DNA from: an uncultured Bacilli bacterium
GTDB taxonomy: Bacteria > Bacillota_I > Bacilli_A > RF39 > UBA660
DNA: 42,712 nucleotides
Assembly: GCA_947630305.1 (NCBI GenBank)
Contig: CANRHC010000006.1
Span: 1-42,712 of the forward strand
Direction: 5' to 3'
Shown: positions 8,665-17,561 of the stretch, in pieces
How positions within the stretch are numbered: the stretch's first letter is position 1
How the letters are laid out: every line of letters begins with the position of its first letter
Translations under genes and position numbers: made by a program
Notes under the pieces: generated by a model
The model's database searches: none
The model's input: the letters and a program-made list of their open reading frames with translations, nothing else
Told to the model about the DNA's origin: nothing

Positions 8665-9603
8665 CTAAAAAATCATCGAAATTTCCGTATTTTGATAATA
8701 ATGACTTAAAATATCTTTATAACTTTTACCTTCTAAAGCCATCCCATTCGCACCATATTGGCTCATACCAACACCATGCCCATAACCCCTGGTACTAACA
8801 ACAACGTCATCAGTATTAACCACAATATCAAAATCAGTAGATCTTAAACCAAGCTTACTACGAACATCACTACCCTTAAAAACAACACCATTAATAGAAA
8901 CAGTTAAAACTCGATTAGAATCACTTCTAACTACATCACTAATGACAACATCATCACAAGAAATATCTAACATCGCACAAAAATCAGCCCTTAAAAAACT
9001 CTTATCAACTTTATAATTTTTTAAAGACTCATTATCCCAACTAGAATCAACACTTTTTAAATAAGGAAGAGCTTCACTAAAAACAAGCTCAGAATTTTCA
9101 GTCTTACCATTACTCATCGAAAAATAAAAAGCATTAATAATATCTCCATCATAAGTTAATACTTCATTTTTAGTTGATAAAACAGCATCACGAATCTTCA
9201 AATAATTATTAAAAAACAAAACATTCCATTGCCTTAATAATTGTTCATTAGTCTTATAAGCTTGATCTTTAACCCCAATTATTAAATCATAATCTAAATT
9301 ACGAGTATTCTTCTTATACATTGCAAAAGTTCGAGCCGCAACTGCCTGAGCTTTCAAAGCTTCAACTTCAAAACTAGAAGGCATCTCAGCACTAACAACC
9401 CCAATAATATAATCTTCTAAACTAACATTACTAATAACTCCATTACTTTCATCTAATAAACGAATATTAATTGGATTATCATCATCACTCACAACTGATG
9501 AAACCGGAAAATAATAATTATGTTTTTTTTCATAAAAAATAACAATAACTAAAACAATAACTAAAAGAAAAATAATAGCAAGCAATATCTTATTCTTCAT
9601 CAT
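8665..9603 (-). CDS. spoIID: Stage II sporulation protein D (lytic transglycosylase)
   Basis: Peptidoglycan lytic transglycosylase needed for engulfment in the SpoIID-SpoIIM-SpoIIP complex. It has an N-terminal membrane anchor (about residues 6-24). The SpoIID domain contains the catalytic Glu in GVVSAEMPSSFEVEALKAQA and the C-terminal signature STRGYGHGVGMSQYGANGMA. About 312 residues is a normal length. The start is taken at the ATG at 9603, whose bases overlap the TGA of the upstream gene (ATGA coupling). An in-frame ATG 12 bases further upstream has no ribosome-binding site. It forms one operon with the DUF1146 gene, rpiB upstream and the spoIIQ-like gene downstream. Confidence 0.95.
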   Translation of the reverse strand: MMKNKILLAIIFLLVIVLVIVIFYEKKHNYYFPVSSVVSDDDNPINIRLLDESNGVISNVSLEDYIIGVVSAEMPSSFEVEALKAQAVAARTFAMYKKNTRNLDYDLIIGVKDQAYKTNEQLLRQWNVLFFNNYLKIRDAVLSTKNEVLTYDGDIINAFYFSMSNGKTENSELVFSEALPYLKSVDSSWDNESLKNYKVDKSFLRADFCAMLDISCDDVVISDVVRSDSNRVLTVSINGVVFKGSDVRSKLGLRSTDFDIVVNTDDVVVSTRGYGHGVGMSQYGANGMALEGKSYKDILSHYYQNTEISMIF

Positions 9604-9785
9604 ATCACCTGCCAAAAACTACTTAAAAACTCTGCTAATAAATATCCCAAAACAAAACTTAAAACAAAATACAATAAACGAGCTTCTAATACTTTATTTT
9701 TCCGAATAAATTTTTCAAAATTAACAGATGTTAAAGCAAAAGCACAAACCATCGTACAAAAAGTATATAAATATATTTTAATCAT
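9600..9785 (-). CDS. DUF1146 (YwzB-like) small membrane protein
   Basis: Integral membrane protein of 61 residues with two hydrophobic helices (about 5-18 and 38-58). The central NFEKFIRKNKVLEARLLYF matches the YwzB/DUF1146 family pattern, in which a short basic loop joins two helices and the second ends L-G-Y-L-x-A-E-F. In B. subtilis ywzB lies upstream of murAA and spoIID, which agrees with spoIID being next here (murA is absent). The gene overlaps both neighbours through ATGA junctions. Function is unknown. Confidence 0.75.
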   Translation of the reverse strand: MIKIYLYTFCTMVCAFALTSVNFEKFIRKNKVLEARLLYFVLSFVLGYLLAEFLSSFWQVI

Positions 9786-10284: not shown

Positions 10285-11106
10285 TTATTTCCTTCTCAAA
10301 ACAAAATTATCTTCCTTAATCTCAACATAATTTAAAACATCACCATTATTTACACTAATACAAGTATTAACATTATATAAATTTTTATCCAAAAATACAT
10401 TAACTCGTTTCCTTTCAGAACTATCAAACAATTTACCATATAAATATAAATACATCAAAGACCTTTCATAAGGACCATTAACATAACCAATATTAATTAA
10501 ATTATCACTTATAAACTGCATCTTCCTTTTAGATAACTCAACACTATCATGATCATCCATCTTAAAATATAAAAAAGCATTATTACGATGAGCTAACGAC
10601 TTATGAAGTTCATCAAAATAAGAATTCAAATATTGCTTATTTAAAGATTTTTCTAAATACATTAAATAATCACGAGATAACCTAACCAATTCTGGATGAT
10701 TCCTATTAATTGTTTTAAAACGAGGAATAACCCCAAAATTAACCGGTCTAAGACCATACTGATTATAAAACAAATCATTTAAAGCATCTAAATAATACCA
10801 ACCATACTCACCTTTAACCAAAACAACAAATAAAGGAATTTTAGCACTATTAGCAACATCCTTCAAAGCCTCAATCCCCAAATCATTAAATAACTTAACA
10901 TAAAAATCAGCTAAAGTAGAACATACAATATACCTACCATGATTATAAAAACCAGCCTGATACTGCAAAAACTTTTCATCATCACTAGCCAAAAAATAAC
11001 CTAAATCTCTTTCAAAAAAAGGAGCCAAAGACGTATATAAATCATAAATAATTAAATCCTTAGACCTATTTCGAGTAGCTTTATTAATTACATTATCTAA
11101 ATTCAC
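10285..11106 (-). CDS. Transglutaminase-like fold protein, unknown function
   Basis: No confident family. Residues YIVCSTLADFYVKLFNDLGIEA followed by VKGEYGWYYLDALNDLFY (about 60-125 from the start) resemble the transglutaminase/cysteine-peptidase core, with its Cys on a helix and a later W-Y-x-x-D-x-x-x-D strand. The histidine usually found before that strand is not obvious, so activity is uncertain. The rest is charged and aromatic, with no membrane segment or signal peptide. The GTG at 11106 is the likely start, because GGGGG lies 8 bases upstream; an in-frame ATG at 11127 sits at the transcription start with no ribosome-binding site. Confidence 0.6.
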   Translation of the reverse strand: MNLDNVINKATRNRSKDLIIYDLYTSLAPFFERDLGYFLASDDEKFLQYQAGFYNHGRYIVCSTLADFYVKLFNDLGIEALKDVANSAKIPLFVVLVKGEYGWYYLDALNDLFYNQYGLRPVNFGVIPRFKTINRNHPELVRLSRDYLMYLEKSLNKQYLNSYFDELHKSLAHRNNAFLYFKMDDHDSVELSKRKMQFISDNLINIGYVNGPYERSLMYLYLYGKLFDSSERKRVNVFLDKNLYNVNTCISVNNGDVLNYVEIKEDNFVLRRK

Positions 11107-11132
11107 TTTTATACCCCCAAAAAACAATGACT

Positions 11133-11502: not shown

Positions 11503-12180
11503 TTACATATGTCGATTTAAAATAATCTTTTTAAAAGAACCTGTCTTTCCATCCATAACATTATAAATATTGAAATAATTTTTATTCTCCTCATAACTTA
11601 TATTATCAATATACTGCCCATTATTACTTTCACCAAAATTAATATTACTATCTAAATAATTTTTAACCTCACTACTAAAATCAAAAAAATTACTTCTTTC
11701 ATTTCGCAAAGATTTATACATATAAGTCATCAAATTAGGATTATTCTTTAATATCTTTAACCATTCATTCCTATTAATAATTAAACCATTAGGCAAATAA
11801 AAATCACCATTAATCTCCATAAAATTTTCACTATTATACTTCCCACTACTTTTCACCATTGGACCTTGAAACTCAAGTTCATTATGAAAAAAGCCAAACC
11901 TTTTCGTATTACCTGCCCAAATAGCATAAGGATATTTATGATTAAAAAATCTATCACAAGGTAATTCAACATAATATTTTAAACTTCTCTCACAATCAAT
12001 TGCAATCTTATTAAGAACAAAAACAACAAATTCAACATTTTTCTCACTTAAATTAGCAATTAAATCACTCATCGTAATTTCATCTTTAATATATAAAGCA
12101 ATCTTCTTTAATAATAGCCTTTCCTTAGGTGTAAAACATACACTTTTAAACTTTTCTAAAGAAACTAAATATTTATCCAT
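11503..12180 (-). CDS. Hypothetical protein, 225 residues
   Basis: Not recognised. It is a soluble-looking protein with an N-terminal helical part (residues 1-60, LEKFKSVCFTPKERLLLKKI), a central aromatic and glycine-rich part (KYPYAIWAGNTKRFGFFHNE, GDFYLPNGLIINRNEW) and an Asn-rich C-terminus. No signal peptide or membrane segment. The ATG at 12180 is preferred, since GAAAGGA lies 10 bases upstream; an in-frame TTG nine bases earlier is too close to that site. It sits between rpsI and the rpmE promoter, where other Firmicutes may have rho. Confidence 0.7.
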   Translation of the reverse strand: MDKYLVSLEKFKSVCFTPKERLLLKKIALYIKDEITMSDLIANLSEKNVEFVVFVLNKIAIDCERSLKYYVELPCDRFFNHKYPYAIWAGNTKRFGFFHNELEFQGPMVKSSGKYNSENFMEINGDFYLPNGLIINRNEWLKILKNNPNLMTYMYKSLRNERSNFFDFSSEVKNYLDSNINFGESNNGQYIDNISYEENKNYFNIYNVMDGKTGSFKKIILNRHM

Positions 12181-12274
12181 ATCAACCAATTCCTTTCAAT
12201 TCATTAAAATACAAATATAATACAACATATTAAAAAAAAATGCAAACAAAAAAAAGCCCACAACGGGCCAAAAA

Positions 12275-12691
12275 TTAACGTTTACTAAATTGTGGAGCTC
12301 TACGAGCCTTTTTAAGACCATATTTCTTACGTTCCTTAACTCTTGGATCTCTAGTAACCATACCATTAGCTTTTAATATCTTACGATAAGCAGTCTCACT
12401 ACTTTGATCAGTATTAGCATCAAACTTTAATAAAGCTCTAGTAATACCCAAACGAATAGCACCAGCTTGACCAGAATATCCACCACCACTAACTTTAACA
12501 GTAATATCAAAACGATTTTCATTATTAGTAAGAGTTAAAGGTTGTTTTAAATCTAACACTAAAATACCATCAGGCATATAATCATTAACATCTACACCAT
12601 TAACTGTAATATTACCTGTACCACTTGTAATAGTAACCTGTGCAACAGCTCTTTTTCTTCTTCCAGTTGCACTCCAAGTCTTATTTGCCAT
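12275..12691 (-). CDS. rpsI: Ribosomal protein uS9
   Basis: Small-subunit protein whose C-terminal tail reaches the P-site t[15 protein letters not shown] near the start, the [20 protein letters not shown] core and the ending [12 protein letters not shown] are diagnostic. Length is 138 residues. It follows rplM with a single base between the genes, as in nearly all bacteria, and has GAGGG 6 bases before the ATG. It is co-transcribed with rplM from the promoter upstream of that gene. Confidence 0.98.
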
Positions 12692-12692
12692 C

Positions 12693-13127
12693 TTAACCCT
12701 CTACTTTCATTTCTACTGGCTTTTGAGCAGAATGCTTATGTTCACCATCACGATAAACAAATAACTTCTTACCCATCGCTCTACCAAGACGATTATGTGG
12801 AAGCATACCTTTTACAGCTCTTTCCATCATCTCTTCTGGATAATTTGTAATCATTTCTTTAGCATTACGTTCTCTAAGTCCTCCTGGATAACCACTATGA
12901 TTATAATACATTTTATCTTCTAGTTTATTTCCAGTTAACTTAACTTTAGATGCATTAATAATAATTACATAATCTCCACAATCAACACTAGGAGTATAAG
13001 TTACCTTATTCTTTCCTCTTAAAACACTAGCTGCCAAAGAAGCAACACGTCCTAAAGACTTACCACTAGCATCAATAACATACCAATTACGTTCAACGTT
13101 CTCTTTTTTTTGCATAAATGTACTCAT
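12693..13127 (-). CDS. rplM: Ribosomal protein uL13
   Basis: Early-assembly large-subunit protein. The motifs [24 protein letters not shown] and [18 protein letters not shown] are family hallmarks. The seventh in-frame Met (ATG at 13127) is the start: AAAGGA lies 10 bases upstream of it, inside the codons of the longer reading. Transcribed with rpsI from a strong promoter behind a leader of about 80 bases. Confidence 0.98.
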
Positions 13128-13241
13128 AAATTTATTTCCTTTCATTTACCTTAAATAATTTTAACTTTCCCAAGGTCAAAACAAATAAGATTTAGAAAAT
13201 GTACCATTAAAAATTATATGCTATAAATAAAGGAAAGTCAA
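13128..13241 (-). promoter_or_regulatory. rplM-rpsI promoter and leader
   Basis: TTGACT (13236-13241), a 17-base spacer and TATAAT (13213-13218) on the minus strand form an excellent sigma-A promoter. The leader that follows can pair ACCTT with AAGGT around the segment before the ribosome-binding site. It occupies the place of the known L13 leader of Firmicutes, but identity with that motif is not shown. Confidence 0.7.
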
Positions 13242-13271: not shown

Positions 13272-13994
13272 TCAATATTTAATTTCCTTCAAATATAAAC
13301 CATAACCAGGCACTACCAAAAAATTAACTTTTTCATTAGGATTTAATAAAGCATCTTTAATATCATTTATTCCTCTTCTTTTACTACCAACCATTATTAA
13401 AGCACCTATCATACTCCTAACCATATACCGATAAAAACCCTTACCTTTAACCACAAAATACAACATATTATCCTCTTCATATATCTTAAAATCATAAATT
13501 GTACTAACATAACTACGACGATACCCCGATACAAAATTACGAAAATCATGAGTTCCAATAAACTTTATACAAGCTTTTTGCATCAATTTAATATCAAGAA
13601 AATAACTTATATGATAAGCATAATCACTAAAAAAAACATTTTTCTCACCAAAATATACTTTATATAAATAAGTCTTCTCTTTAACATCATATCTTGCATG
13701 AAAAGAATCAGCAACCAATAAAATACTATTAACACTAATACTAGATGGCAACATTTTATTAACAATATATTTTAACTTATCAACATCAAAATCTTTATTC
13801 AAATCAAAATGAAGACATTGATCATAAGCATGAACTAAAGCATCAGTCCTACCAGCACCTTTAACTAATACTTCACTACCATTAATCTTACTTAAAACAG
13901 ATTCTAAACAAGCTTGAACACTTTTTTTATCACGCAACCTTTGAAAACCATTAAATTTACTACCATCATAACTAATTCTCATTAAATATCTCAT
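13272..13994 (-). CDS. truA: tRNA pseudouridine(38-40) synthase TruA
   Basis: Converts uridines 38-40 of the tRNA anticodon stem to pseudouridine. The catalytic aspartate is Asp51 in the GAGRTDALVHA motif. The YDGSKFNGFQ opening and the late GKGFYRYMVRSMIGALI segment are typical. Length is 240 residues. It overlaps the upstream EcfA-like gene by four bases (ATGA). In other Firmicutes ecfT occupies that junction, so its loss brought these genes together. Confidence 0.97.
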   Translation of the reverse strand: MRYLMRISYDGSKFNGFQRLRDKKSVQACLESVLSKINGSEVLVKGAGRTDALVHAYDQCLHFDLNKDFDVDKLKYIVNKMLPSSISVNSILLVADSFHARYDVKEKTYLYKVYFGEKNVFFSDYAYHISYFLDIKLMQKACIKFIGTHDFRNFVSGYRRSYVSTIYDFKIYEEDNMLYFVVKGKGFYRYMVRSMIGALIMVGSKRRGINDIKDALLNPNEKVNFLVVPGYGLYLKEIKY

Positions 13995-14584
13995 TTTATA
14001 CCTCGATATATAGCCTTTAAAGTTTCATTAAAAGTAATTTCATGATCAATCTTATGACCACAAGATTCCAAATATTTTATAAGCTCAACACTCTTAGGCA
14101 TACAAACATATTTATATAACTCATCATCATAAAAATCATTAATAACTTTATAATTTTTTCCATCAAAAACAATAACTTCTTTAACAAACTCACCCAAAAA
14201 ATCCATATCACTTTCAATCAAAACAATACCAATATTCTGTTTATTAACTAAATTTCTTAATAATCTTTTAAAATATTGTTGCTCACTATATATTAATTTT
14301 GAAAACATCTCTTTAATAATCAAAACTTTATCCTTCTTTAAAAGATAAAAAGCTAATCGAACTTTAATTCTTTCAACCCTAGACAAATAACATAACTTAA
14401 CATCTAAAATACTTTCATCTAATAAAACCATTTTTAAAGCCTTTTTAAATTTAGAAGAAAAACATAAAAAATCTAAAACACTTATTTCATCTTTAAACTT
14501 TTTATCACTTATTATATTATAATTCTTAAACAAATTTTTAGGTGAATTTATTAAAACTTTAATCATCCCTAACTTTGCTTCCAT
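13991..14584 (-). CDS. Eroded EcfA-type ABC ATPase (second copy position)
   Basis: Occupies the ecfA2 place in the conserved ecfA1-ecfA2-ecfT-truA-rplM-rpsI order, but without ecfT. The remains of an ABC ATPase can be followed. A Walker A position reads INSPKNLFKN with no GxxGxGKS. The signature LSGGQ is LSRVE (about 68-72), followed by RIKVRLAFYLL. Walker B is KVLIIKE, with the aspartate replaced by Lys. The C-terminal region (ELIKYLESCGHKIDHEITFN) keeps the EcfA tail pattern. It is 197 residues against about 280 for EcfA. The frame is intact, with GAGGAGG before the ATG and coupled overlaps on both sides. ATP hydrolysis is very unlikely; any present role is unknown. Confidence 0.6.
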   Translation of the reverse strand: MEAKLGMIKVLINSPKNLFKNYNIISDKKFKDEISVLDFLCFSSKFKKALKMVLLDESILDVKLCYLSRVERIKVRLAFYLLKKDKVLIIKEMFSKLIYSEQQYFKRLLRNLVNKQNIGIVLIESDMDFLGEFVKEVIVFDGKNYKVINDFYDDELYKYVCMPKSVELIKYLESCGHKIDHEITFNETLKAIYRGIK

Positions 14585-15147
14585 AAAGCCTCCTCTAACT
14601 CTTCTTTATTATAACAAATCTTATCTAATAACCCATAATATGATAACTGAATACTTAAATCGACATAAAATGGAAGTGAATAACCCAATAATTTCATCAA
14701 TTTTTCTTCTTTTAATATTAACTTAGTTTCACCTTCCATAACAACCTTTTTATTATAAACAACCTTAGTATAAAAAAAATTAACAATATCTTCAACATTA
14801 CTAGTTAAATATAAAACTTTTTTATTTTTTTGTTTTAAATATTCAAATATTTTACAACGCTCATCATAATTAAATACACTACTTAAATCATCAATAACAA
14901 TAAAATCACTTTTACAAATCTTTTTTAACAAACCTTTAATATATGGTAATTTACTTAAATCATCAATAATATTATTACTAATATCATAATTAGCTTTTTC
15001 TAAACAATAAGTATTTATTTTATGTTTTTTTAATTCTTTACATAAATAACTTTTACCATTAGTCATTAAAACACAACTAGAAACACTACTATCAAAATTA
15101 AAATTTTCTAAAATAAGTTTATCATTACATTTAACCGTTATAACCAT
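14569..15147 (-). CDS. Eroded EcfA-type ABC ATPase (first copy position)
   Basis: Occupies the ecfA1 place. The Walker A region is reduced to TNGKSYL (about 29-35), a GKS without the preceding glycines. The helical domain and LSGGQ signature are missing, and Walker B is DFIVIDD, with the catalytic Glu changed to Asp. The C-terminal half (VVYNKKVVMEGETKLILKE, then LMKLLGYSLPFYVDLSIQLSYYGLL) matches the EcfA pattern of G-K-x-x-x-E-G followed by L-G-x-x-x-P and L-x-x-x-G. It is 192 residues against about 280. It overlaps the next gene by 16 bases. The ribosome-binding site is weak. It may be a late-stage relic or a repurposed subunit. Confidence 0.6.
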   Translation of the reverse strand: MVITVKCNDKLILENFNFDSSVSSCVLMTNGKSYLCKELKKHKINTYCLEKANYDISNNIIDDLSKLPYIKGLLKKICKSDFIVIDDLSSVFNYDERCKIFEYLKQKNKKVLYLTSNVEDIVNFFYTKVVYNKKVVMEGETKLILKEEKLMKLLGYSLPFYVDLSIQLSYYGLLDKICYNKEELEEALWKQS

Positions 15148-15559: not shown

Positions 15560-15859
15560 TCATTTACACTTTTTATGTAAAATTAATTTATTTATAAACC
15601 ATTTTATTAAAGGAAAAGAACAAATAAAACCAATCAAAACAAAAATCAAAAAATAAATATGAAAAATCCCTAAATTTAATTTATACATTAATAATATATA
15701 TCCTAAAACTACATCTATTATAAATACAATACTAATCAAAAATTTAAAAATTAAATGATAATGACATATTAATTTAAAATGTAAATTAGTTATTATTCCA
15801 AATAAGATTCCATATAAAAATGAAAAGAAAAAACAATATAATTGTAAAAAAGAACTCAT
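15560..15859 (-). CDS. yabQ: YabQ-like spore cortex membrane protein
   Basis: Ninety-nine residues with three or four hydrophobic helices, rich in Phe, Ile and Leu, and a short Lys-rich C-terminus. The opening LQLYCFFFSFLYGILFGI and the position between yabP and divIC identify the YabQ family, required for spore cortex formation in B. subtilis. The start overlaps the yabP stop (ATGA). Sequence similarity alone would be weak; gene order carries the call. Confidence 0.8.
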   Translation of the reverse strand: MSSFLQLYCFFFSFLYGILFGIITNLHFKLICHYHLIFKFLISIVFIIDVVLGYILLMYKLNLGIFHIYFLIFVLIGFICSFPLIKWFINKLILHKKCK

Positions 15860-16143
15860 TTAAATAATTTAGCCATAAAACTTTCTTCTTTTACTTTATT
15901 CTTTCCATTTTCAATATAACTAAAACTATTAATTCGTCCTTTAATTCTAACTTTACCATCATTAGTATCTAACTTAAGAATCTCTAAACCCGCTCCTTTT
16001 AACAACAACATCCCCATATTTGTTTCAAGTAAAAACTCTTCATGATCAAAACTACTAATCTTTTTAACACCAGTCAAATAAATTTCTTTCCTATCTAATA
16101 TATTTACTTCATGATTATTGCTAATATCAATACTTTGATCCAT
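15856..16143 (-). CDS. yabP: YabP spore coat morphogenesis protein
   Basis: Small sporulation protein paired with YabQ. The opening NNHEVNILDRKEIYLTGVKKISSFDHEEFLLET and the later MGMLLLKGAGLEILKLD fit the YabP/YqfC family, built from short beta strands. The ATG at 16143 is preferred (GGGTG 7 bases upstream) over an in-frame GTG nine bases earlier. It is the first gene of yabP-yabQ-divIC, downstream of spoVG. Confidence 0.9.
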   Translation of the reverse strand: MDQSIDISNNHEVNILDRKEIYLTGVKKISSFDHEEFLLETNMGMLLLKGAGLEILKLDTNDGKVRIKGRINSFSYIENGKNKVKEESFMAKLFK

Positions 16144-16177
16144 AAATATCACCCAATAAAGAATATGATAATTTATA

Positions 16178-16210
16178 CAAAAAAAGAACCTTTTTATTTA
16201 AAGATCCTTT
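16178..16210 (-). terminator. spoVG terminator
   Basis: On the minus strand AAGGATCTTT pairs with AAAGGTTCTT through ten base pairs (two G-U) around a 6-base loop, followed by seven T. It lies just beyond the spoVG stop. Confidence 0.6.
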
Positions 16211-16220
16211 AATATTCCCA

Positions 16221-16481
16221 TTATTCTTCTTCTTTATTAAATTCAGCAAATATAGCTTCTTCAAACATCTTACGAACTTCTGGATTTATTGGATGACAAA
16301 CATCTTTATATTCCCCTGTAGCTGTTTTTCTACTAGGCATAGCAATAAATAATCCGTTGTCTCCTTCAATAATTCTAATATCATGAACTGCAAAAGCATC
16401 ATCAATTAAAACACTAGCAATTCCCTTCAATCTAGAATTTTCTTTCGTAATCTTACGAACATTAACAGATGAAATTTTCAT
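16221..16481 (-). CDS. spoVG: SpoVG RNA-binding regulator
   Basis: Conserved regulator of septation and gene expression, shown in other Firmicutes to bind RNA or DNA. The whole family pattern is present: KISSVNVRKI, LKGIASVLIDDAFAVHDIRI, NGLFIAMPSRKT and DVCHPINPEVRK. Length is 86 residues. GGAGGAG lies 5 bases before the ATG, and a promoter is visible upstream. It is flanked by veg and yabP; the ispE-purR-yabJ genes that separate veg and spoVG in B. subtilis are absent. Confidence 0.97.
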   Translation of the reverse strand: MKISSVNVRKITKENSRLKGIASVLIDDAFAVHDIRIIEGDNGLFIAMPSRKTATGEYKDVCHPINPEVRKMFEEAIFAEFNKEEE

Positions 16482-16509
16482 AACATACTCCTCCTAATTT
16501 CATAATTTA

Positions 16510-16538
16510 ATTTTATAGCATTTTCTCGCATATTTCAA
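16510..16538 (-). promoter_or_regulatory. spoVG promoter
   Basis: TTGAAA (16533-16538), 17-base spacer and TAAAAT (16510-16515) on the minus strand, about 30 bases before the spoVG start. It overlaps the veg 3' end by a few bases at most. Whether sigma-H also acts here cannot be judged. Confidence 0.5.
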
Positions 16539-16543
16539 GTATT

Positions 16544-16756
16544 TTAAAGAGGTTTTATTACAACATCCCCAATAATTACATCAGCATAATTAAAACTCTT
16601 TTCGCTACCATCAATAAAAACCGTAAAAACATAAGGATAAACTGCTGATAATACCCCCTCATATTCATAATTTTTATTTCTCATACCATATACTTTAATT
16701 AATACTTTTTTATTTAAATACTTAGCTATATCATCTCTAATTAAATCTAAATTCAA
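16544..16756 (-). CDS. veg: Veg protein (biofilm-related, SH3-like)
   Basis: Small conserved Firmicutes protein of 70 residues. The Veg pattern is seen: a short helix (LIRDDIAKYLNKKVLIK), then YEGVLSAVYPYVFTVFIDG and SFNYADVIIGDVVI. Veg of B. subtilis influences biofilm matrix genes. It follows yabG by ten bases in a conserved order, indicating co-transcription. Confidence 0.88.
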   Translation of the reverse strand: MNLDLIRDDIAKYLNKKVLIKVYGMRNKNYEYEGVLSAVYPYVFTVFIDGSEKSFNYADVIIGDVVIKPL

Positions 16757-16766
16757 AATAATCCCC

Positions 16767-17537
16767 CTATCTTGGAAACCCTACATACATCATTCCATTA
16801 CTCTTTATTCCACCTATCCCACTAGCACCATATTTAGTTTTAGCCAATAAATTTACCAAATCAACCTCTTTATTACGTTCACTCATAGCTAATACAGTCG
16901 CAATTATAGCAGGATCTAAACAATGAATATTAATCCTTTTTGGACTAGAAGCAAAATTTGCCCCAGCTTTAATTAACTGTTCATAATTACTTTGACAAGC
17001 ACCAGCAATAATTACTAATTTCTCATGAGATTTTTCATATTTTCTTGCTTCTTTAATAGCTTTAACAAAAGCATCACTATTCCGATAATTATGATTATCA
17101 TTAGGACTTCCCTTTTTAGGATAATATGCATCATGACCAGTAATTATGACAATATCAGGTTGAAATTCTTCCAATAAATTTCTTATCTCTTTATAAACAT
17201 CTTGCTCATTAATCTTTTTACCAATAACCATTACTTTATTTTTTTTATAAAACTTTATGCATCTTTTTAAATAATCCTCATCAGCATCAATATGTAAAAC
17301 CTTACCAGGCAAATAAAAATATTCACCTCGATCTCCATTAATTTCTAAATCAACATCAACATCATCTTCAACTCTTAATTCTTCATATTTAACTAAATCT
17401 TCTAAAAAAGCATCAGCATATAATCTTACTTGAACTCCTTTTAAATATGCAACTTGATTTTTAATTTTAATAATTTTAAAAACAGTATCATTATTATAAC
17501 TAATTCTTGTAACTAAATCGCCAACATCAAATTCCAT
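16767..17537 (-). CDS. yabG: Sporulation-specific cysteine peptidase YabG
   Basis: Protease that processes spore coat proteins and SpoIVA late in sporulation. The N-terminal SH3-like part (FDVGDLVTRISYNNDTVFKI) is followed by the peptidase domain with the TGHDAYY motif (His, about 138) and GACQSNYEQLIKAGANFASSP (Cys, about 181). The GGIKSNGMMYVGFP ending is also typical. The second ATG (17537) is chosen because AGGGG is 7 bases upstream. The order rsmA-yabG-veg matches Bacillus. Confidence 0.93.
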   Translation of the reverse strand: MEFDVGDLVTRISYNNDTVFKIIKIKNQVAYLKGVQVRLYADAFLEDLVKYEELRVEDDVDVDLEINGDRGEYFYLPGKVLHIDADEDYLKRCIKFYKKNKVMVIGKKINEQDVYKEIRNLLEEFQPDIVIITGHDAYYPKKGSPNDNHNYRNSDAFVKAIKEARKYEKSHEKLVIIAGACQSNYEQLIKAGANFASSPKRINIHCLDPAIIATVLAMSERNKEVDLVNLLAKTKYGASGIGGIKSNGMMYVGFPR

Positions 17538-17561
17538 ACACATCCCCTAAAAAATTTTATG

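Follow-up and report, generated by a model that had tools for sequence, protein, structure and literature searches.

The locus described here raised the question of why two ATPase genes of an ECF transporter stay open when the gene for the membrane subunit EcfT and the motifs for ATP hydrolysis have been lost. The locus lies in 42,712 nucleotides of DNA from an uncultured Bacilli bacterium, which we refer to as the window. An earlier reading of the letters alone (the sequence-only reading) had described two intact, translationally coupled frames of about 195 residues as EcfA genes that stand in the usual position before truA-rplM-rpsI, with ecfT absent. We found the frames, at 197 residues (pA2) and 192 residues (pA1), and the gene order pA1-pA2-truA-rplM-rpsI, all on the minus strand (Table 1). 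The ecf operon order and EcfT-bearing loci are the ancestral state in Bacilli (PMC8046335).

Table 1. Features of the pA1-pA2 locus, in window coordinates
Feature	Position	Strand	Evidence
pA1, EcfA1-derived pseudo-ATPase, 192 aa	14569..15147	-	NCBIfam profile, AlphaFold model, structural matches, genus orthologues
pA2, EcfA2-derived pseudo-ATPase, 197 aa	13991..14584	-	NCBIfam profile, AlphaFold model, structural matches
Overlap of pA1 end and pA2 start, 16 nt	14569..14584	-	ORF coordinates
pA1 P-loop remnant, residues 28-33 (MTNGKS)	15049..15066	-	Alignments and motif scan
pA1 C-terminal domain, residues 137-189, most conserved part of pA1	14581..14739	-	Columns of 30 sequences
pA2 C-terminal domain, residues 150-195, most conserved part of pA2	14000..14137	-	Columns of 33 sequences
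Expected ecfT position; pA2/truA overlap, 4 nt	13991..13994	-	ORF coordinates
truA, conserved downstream neighbor	13272..13994	-	PF01416, E 1.1e-32
rplM and rpsI, remainder of ancestral ecf operon	12275..13145	-	Gene order

Homology, predicted fold, and the missing transporter subunits

In profile searches, pA2 matched the NCBIfam family TIGR04521 (ECF_ATPase_2) with an E value of 1.2e-9, and pA1 matched TIGR04520 (ECF_ATPase_1) with an E value of 2.5e-7. Both scores were far below the curated cut-offs (330 bits for TIGR04521 and 315 bits for TIGR04520), which indicated that the proteins were homologues of the two ATPases yet stood outside the working families. A Pfam search of pA1 and pA2 returned nothing useful. 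AlphaFold2 models, which were built for single chains from the window and related-locus sequences, had a pLDDT of 90.0 for pA1 and 89.7 for pA2, with a pTM of 0.83 in both cases. The best matches of the pA1 model were ECF/CbiO ATPases (Z of 15.6 to 16.9 over about 190 residues), among them 5x3x_A (Z 16.9, rmsd 3.1, 192 residues) and 8bms_B (Z 15.6). The pA2 model matched the EcfA2 chain 8bms_B (Z 15.3, rmsd 2.8, 196 residues), and because the alignment ran from residue 28 of that chain onward, the N-terminal beta subdomain is missing. Foldseek agreed in matching both models to ECF-transporter ATPases. As the sequence-only reading requires, the predicted models showed an ABC ATPase fold, here of the EcfA type and over the whole chain; the C-terminal domain was kept in both proteins. 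Thus, pA1 and pA2 are diverged homologues of EcfA1 and EcfA2.

Two such homologues inside the ecf operon are characteristic of a group II ECF transporter. The EcfT membrane subunit that such a transporter also has was not found in the window, where the ecfT slot was closed by the overlap of pA2 and truA, and the CbiQ/EcfT profile (PF02361) had no match in the window's genome, which is 70% complete. A profile for diverged EcfT, whose rows were drawn from the family and which had no positive control in the genus, matched none of 37 genus genomes. In the family-wide surveys, no genome with the eroded pair clearly carried an intact ecfA-ecfT set at another place; an EcfT match on another contig was seen in G105 only, and it carried a stop. 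The S components sought with PF12822, PF07155, and BioY gave nothing over the cut-offs in 117 order genomes, and the sensitivity of this search is unproven because EcfT-bearing relatives showed none either. Family genomes with an intact-looking EcfA1-EcfA2-EcfT module also had no S component over these cut-offs. In the 37 genus genomes, PF12822 produced only weak, subthreshold hits; the best of these, in G012 and G165, reads as a TspO-like protein.

Two minus-strand ORFs near rpsI (positions 10285-11127, 280 aa, and 11503-12189, 228 aa) had no Pfam match. Sporulation-type genes were present at positions 15560-17543 and 8665-9615, including those for a YabG peptidase (PF05582), SpoVG, YabP, and SpoIID, with a small membrane protein in the YabQ position; the host is a small-genome, uncultured gut Bacilli lineage. 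A link to divIC or sporulation was considered as the cause of pair retention and rejected, since only one set of relatives had the block yabG-veg-spoVG-yabP-yabQ-divIC immediately upstream of pA1, which does not account for retention across the family.

Erosion of the ATPase motifs accompanies the loss of EcfT

Among 25 sampled genomes of the genus, counting that of the window, pA2 orthologues were found in 21 (46 to 100% identity) and pA1 orthologues in 21 (38 to 67% identity within the genus); a further weak pA2 hit in G010 was a longer ABC protein. Further records with related loci included Candidatus Ventrenecus avicola, C. stercoripullorum, and MAGs from rabbit and chicken guts. The window's order, which as sampled consisted of a single family with 67 genera, was represented mostly by MAGs. 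The pA2 profile was matched in 103 of 117 order genomes, with the weakest matches being other ABC proteins, and in nearly all of the 80 loci that we read, genes resembling EcfA1 and EcfA2 stood as a pair immediately ahead of truA or of ecfT-truA. Homologues with matching gene order in most genus and family genomes indicated that the ORFs were not chance frames. Twelve truA loci were checked separately: seven had a more diverged pair, two were cut, and three had no pair, which indicated that the pair can be lost.

When the presence or absence of EcfT was placed on a TruA-RplM-RpsI species tree of 90 genomes, about seven changes were required, at least four of them on well-supported branches. 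The window clade, with 39 genomes, was uniformly without EcfT. Because EcfT-bearing loci are ancestral in Bacilli, most of the changes on this unrooted and partly gappy tree were probably losses. Both ATPases usually persisted where EcfT had been lost, in several lineages.

The sequence-only reading had also stated that both ATPases lack Walker A, the signature motif, and the Walker B acids. This was accurate for pA2, in which all were lost, but went too far for pA1, which has no complete P-loop and keeps a MTNGKS remnant and the Walker B aspartate (VIDD). Neither window protein had the combination of Walker A, signature motif, Walker B glutamate, and switch histidine that marks a catalytically competent ABC ATPase. 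Apart from G006, the nearest relative, all other genus members examined kept the Walker A GK[ST] of pA1, nearly always as part of a full P-loop, GxxGxGK[ST] (for example, GESGSGKS).

For a wider comparison, 79 loci with a truA anchor were sorted by EcfT state: 20 had a well-scoring EcfT, 8 a poorly scoring EcfT, 5 an unrecognized membrane ORF of 189 to 233 aa in the ecfT slot, and 46 nothing. Motif retention dropped in step with this state. In the 20 genomes with a well-scoring EcfT, the GK, signature, Walker B glutamate, and switch histidine were kept by 17, 12, 14, and 13 of the EcfA1 proteins and by 20, 16, 18, and 10 of the EcfA2 proteins, respectively. The corresponding numbers without EcfT were 27, 0, 0, and 1 of 45 for EcfA1 and 4, 0, 5, and 0 of 46 for EcfA2; the signature motif was gone from both subunits in 46 of 46 genomes. 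The motifs of EcfA1 and EcfA2 were intact in the other families of the class that we checked (L257, L260, L261, L263, and L266).

P-loop loss is also ordered. Without EcfT, GK[ST] was retained by EcfA1 only in 23 genomes, by both proteins in 4, and by neither in 18, and no genome retained it in EcfA2 only. The Fisher P value for this pattern (4e-7) overstates it because the genomes are not independent. Several lineages had lost the P-loop together with much of the N-terminal half (in g32, pA1 was only 145 to 150 aa long), so a nucleotide role, if there is one, does not extend to all of them. Membrane ORFs of about 190 to 233 aa without recognizable EcfT similarity occupied the ecfT slot in L210, L214, L216, L218 (g48), L205, L227, and L231; they are possible last stages of EcfT erosion or possible replacement partners.

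Selection on the retained pair

The dN/dS values of pA1 and pA2 in close pairs, obtained with the simple Nei-Gojobori method, were 0.06 to 0.29, near the 0.06 to 0.21 of truA; more diverged pairs involving L138 gave 0.40 to 0.65. In the case of L133 and L138, the TruA proteins were 94% identical and pA1 and pA2 only 57 to 58% identical, an unusually fast joint change. A joint replacement of pA1 and pA2 between these two loci was suspected and set aside, with blastn giving one unbroken 79% match across the region.

These data bear on the first of two explanations that the sequence-only reading had offered, namely, recent decay after ECF uptake ended. The genes would then be pseudogenes in the course of being lost that have yet to acquire a stop. 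The loss of ecfT and the motifs, the fast divergence of the N-terminal halves, the absence of the pair beside truA in three family genomes, and one in-frame TAG within the pA1 match of G003 all fit recent decay. However, both frames were open in nearly all of dozens of species across the genus and family, with genus members mostly 45 to 70% identical; dN/dS in close pairs was near that of truA; and the pair was retained across the deep EcfT-less window clade. The conserved gene overlap and C-terminal domains described below point the same way. Recent decay was therefore strongly contradicted, and we consider it extremely improbable.

Conservation was concentrated at the C terminus. The pA1 domain had invariant E, G, K, P, F, S, L, and Y columns (30 sequences), and the pA2 domain had conserved FYDD..Y, MP, and E..K.IYR columns (33 sequences). 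Identity was compared by region, with the stretch from the Q-loop to the signature motif taken as the part that docks on EcfT. In these alignment-dependent values, C-terminal-domain identity of EcfA1 was 0.44 with EcfT and 0.45 without it, and that of EcfA2 fell slightly, from 0.39 to 0.35. In contrast, docking-region identity was 0.39 with EcfT versus 0.18 without it for EcfA1 and 0.46 versus 0.25 for EcfA2; in lineages without EcfT, the region was free or deleted.

The region comparison argued against a further explanation, in which the pair is still a transporter motor that docks on an unrecognized membrane protein in place of EcfT. In several lineages the ecfT slot still holds a membrane ORF or an EcfT that has diverged strongly, which indicates that EcfT can drift beyond recognition, and a need for vitamins is expected of the group, as RF39 bacteria are expected to require them (PMC6784871), provided that the window's family belongs to RF39; NCBI taxonomy assigns Candidatus Ventrenecus to no order. 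Against this explanation, the docking region had lost conservation or was deleted, no signature motif survived without EcfT, the slot in the window clade was empty, and the 37 genus genomes had no EcfT-like match. We regard a hidden transporter partner as unlikely.

Of 78 family pairs, 74 had an EcfA1/EcfA2 gene overlap of exactly 10 nt, whatever the state of EcfT or of motif erosion; class relatives outside the family had a larger overlap. This regularity, and a truA start that often overlaps the pair or lies a few nucleotides away, would fit a role in cis only, in which translation through the frames feeds ribosomes into truA. Such a role predicts free amino acid change, but nonsynonymous sites were constrained and specific C-terminal residues were invariant, and in many genomes truA was spaced from the pair. 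We judge this explanation to be very unlikely. The overlap itself may help fix the C-terminal tryptophan of pA1.

EcfA1 and EcfA2 distances were correlated beyond species distances, with a partial rank r of 0.51 for all genomes and 0.42 for those without EcfT, and the maximum of 300 permutations was 0.15. Linkage and shared recombination may account for part of this correlation.

A probable role without transport, and known relatives

Because both subunits were kept under strong selection after their partner and hydrolysis motifs had been lost, the pair very probably does a job other than transport. The reading that we favor is that pA1 and pA2 are a selected, non-hydrolyzing EcfA1-EcfA2 heterodimer with a transport-independent role, derived from a lost group II ECF vitamin transporter; we consider this probable, and decay, a cis role in translation, and a hidden transporter partner fit the data worse. 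The non-ATPase heterodimer with another role suggested by the sequence-only reading was thus the better supported of its two options, with the pairing and the role being what we infer. In EcfA-EcfA', the C-terminal domains serve pairing, and pA1 and pA2 may form a permanent heterodimer through theirs, for which the gene overlap, the conservation of these domains, and the correlated rates give indirect support. Because the signature motif is missing from pA2, and the catalytic glutamate and the switch histidine from pA1, the pair would be unable to hydrolyze ATP as an ABC sandwich dimer. Nucleotide binding at the pA1 site may persist in many lineages and set the shape of the pair, which would act as a soluble adaptor or in regulation. 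In the window species, the nucleotide site of pA1 is nearly gone too, so that the pair may in the end serve some partner as a soluble adaptor or as a scaffold.

The new function could have been gained once, after EcfT was lost in the window clade, with no relation to other lineages. In favor of a single gain, the window clade forms one old group in which EcfT is absent and the proteins are shorter, but both degenerate ATPases also persisted in other lineages with a separate loss of EcfT, and we consider a single gain unlikely. Repeated loss of EcfT with the ATPases usually retained would be explained most simply by a second role that EcfA1-EcfA2 already had before EcfT was lost. In its broadest form, this idea is tentative: EcfA1-EcfA2 of Bacilli may have had, before EcfT loss, a second function that requires neither transport, ATP hydrolysis, nor EcfT; this would explain why several lineages kept the motor pair, and the function might exist in model Bacilli.

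A transporter motor that has outlived its transporter in several lineages, under selection, amounts to a natural gene-dissection experiment and points to a further job for an ATPase pair that is among the most widespread in Bacilli. The graded series from intact to fully eroded also offers material on how an ABC ATPase becomes a pseudoenzyme, and an ecfA annotation alone is no proof of vitamin uptake in uncultured gut Bacilli. Our literature search, whose coverage mostly excluded subscription journals, covered EcfA without EcfT and degenerate EcfA and found no description of this case.

The pair can be compared with three known systems. With EcfA1 and EcfA2 of group II ECF transporters (for example, 8bms, 5d3m, 4huq, and 4hlu), pA1 and pA2 share ancestry, gene order, the ABC-ATPase core, and the C-terminal domain fold, but they have no EcfT, recognized S component, signature motif, catalytic glutamate, or switch histidine, and the N-terminal subdomain of pA2 and the docking region of pA1 are reduced. 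Other families of the class have intact EcfA1-EcfA2-EcfT loci, which encode the same pair in the same order as full-length homologues with intact EcfA motifs. Finally, ABC exporters with one degenerate site (for example, MsRv1273c/72c [PMC12038006] and TmrAB) resemble the proposed EcfA heterodimer in being asymmetric, with one nucleotide site that has persisted longer than the other; those exporters keep one working site and their membrane domains, whereas pA1 and pA2 have neither a complete catalytic site nor a membrane domain.
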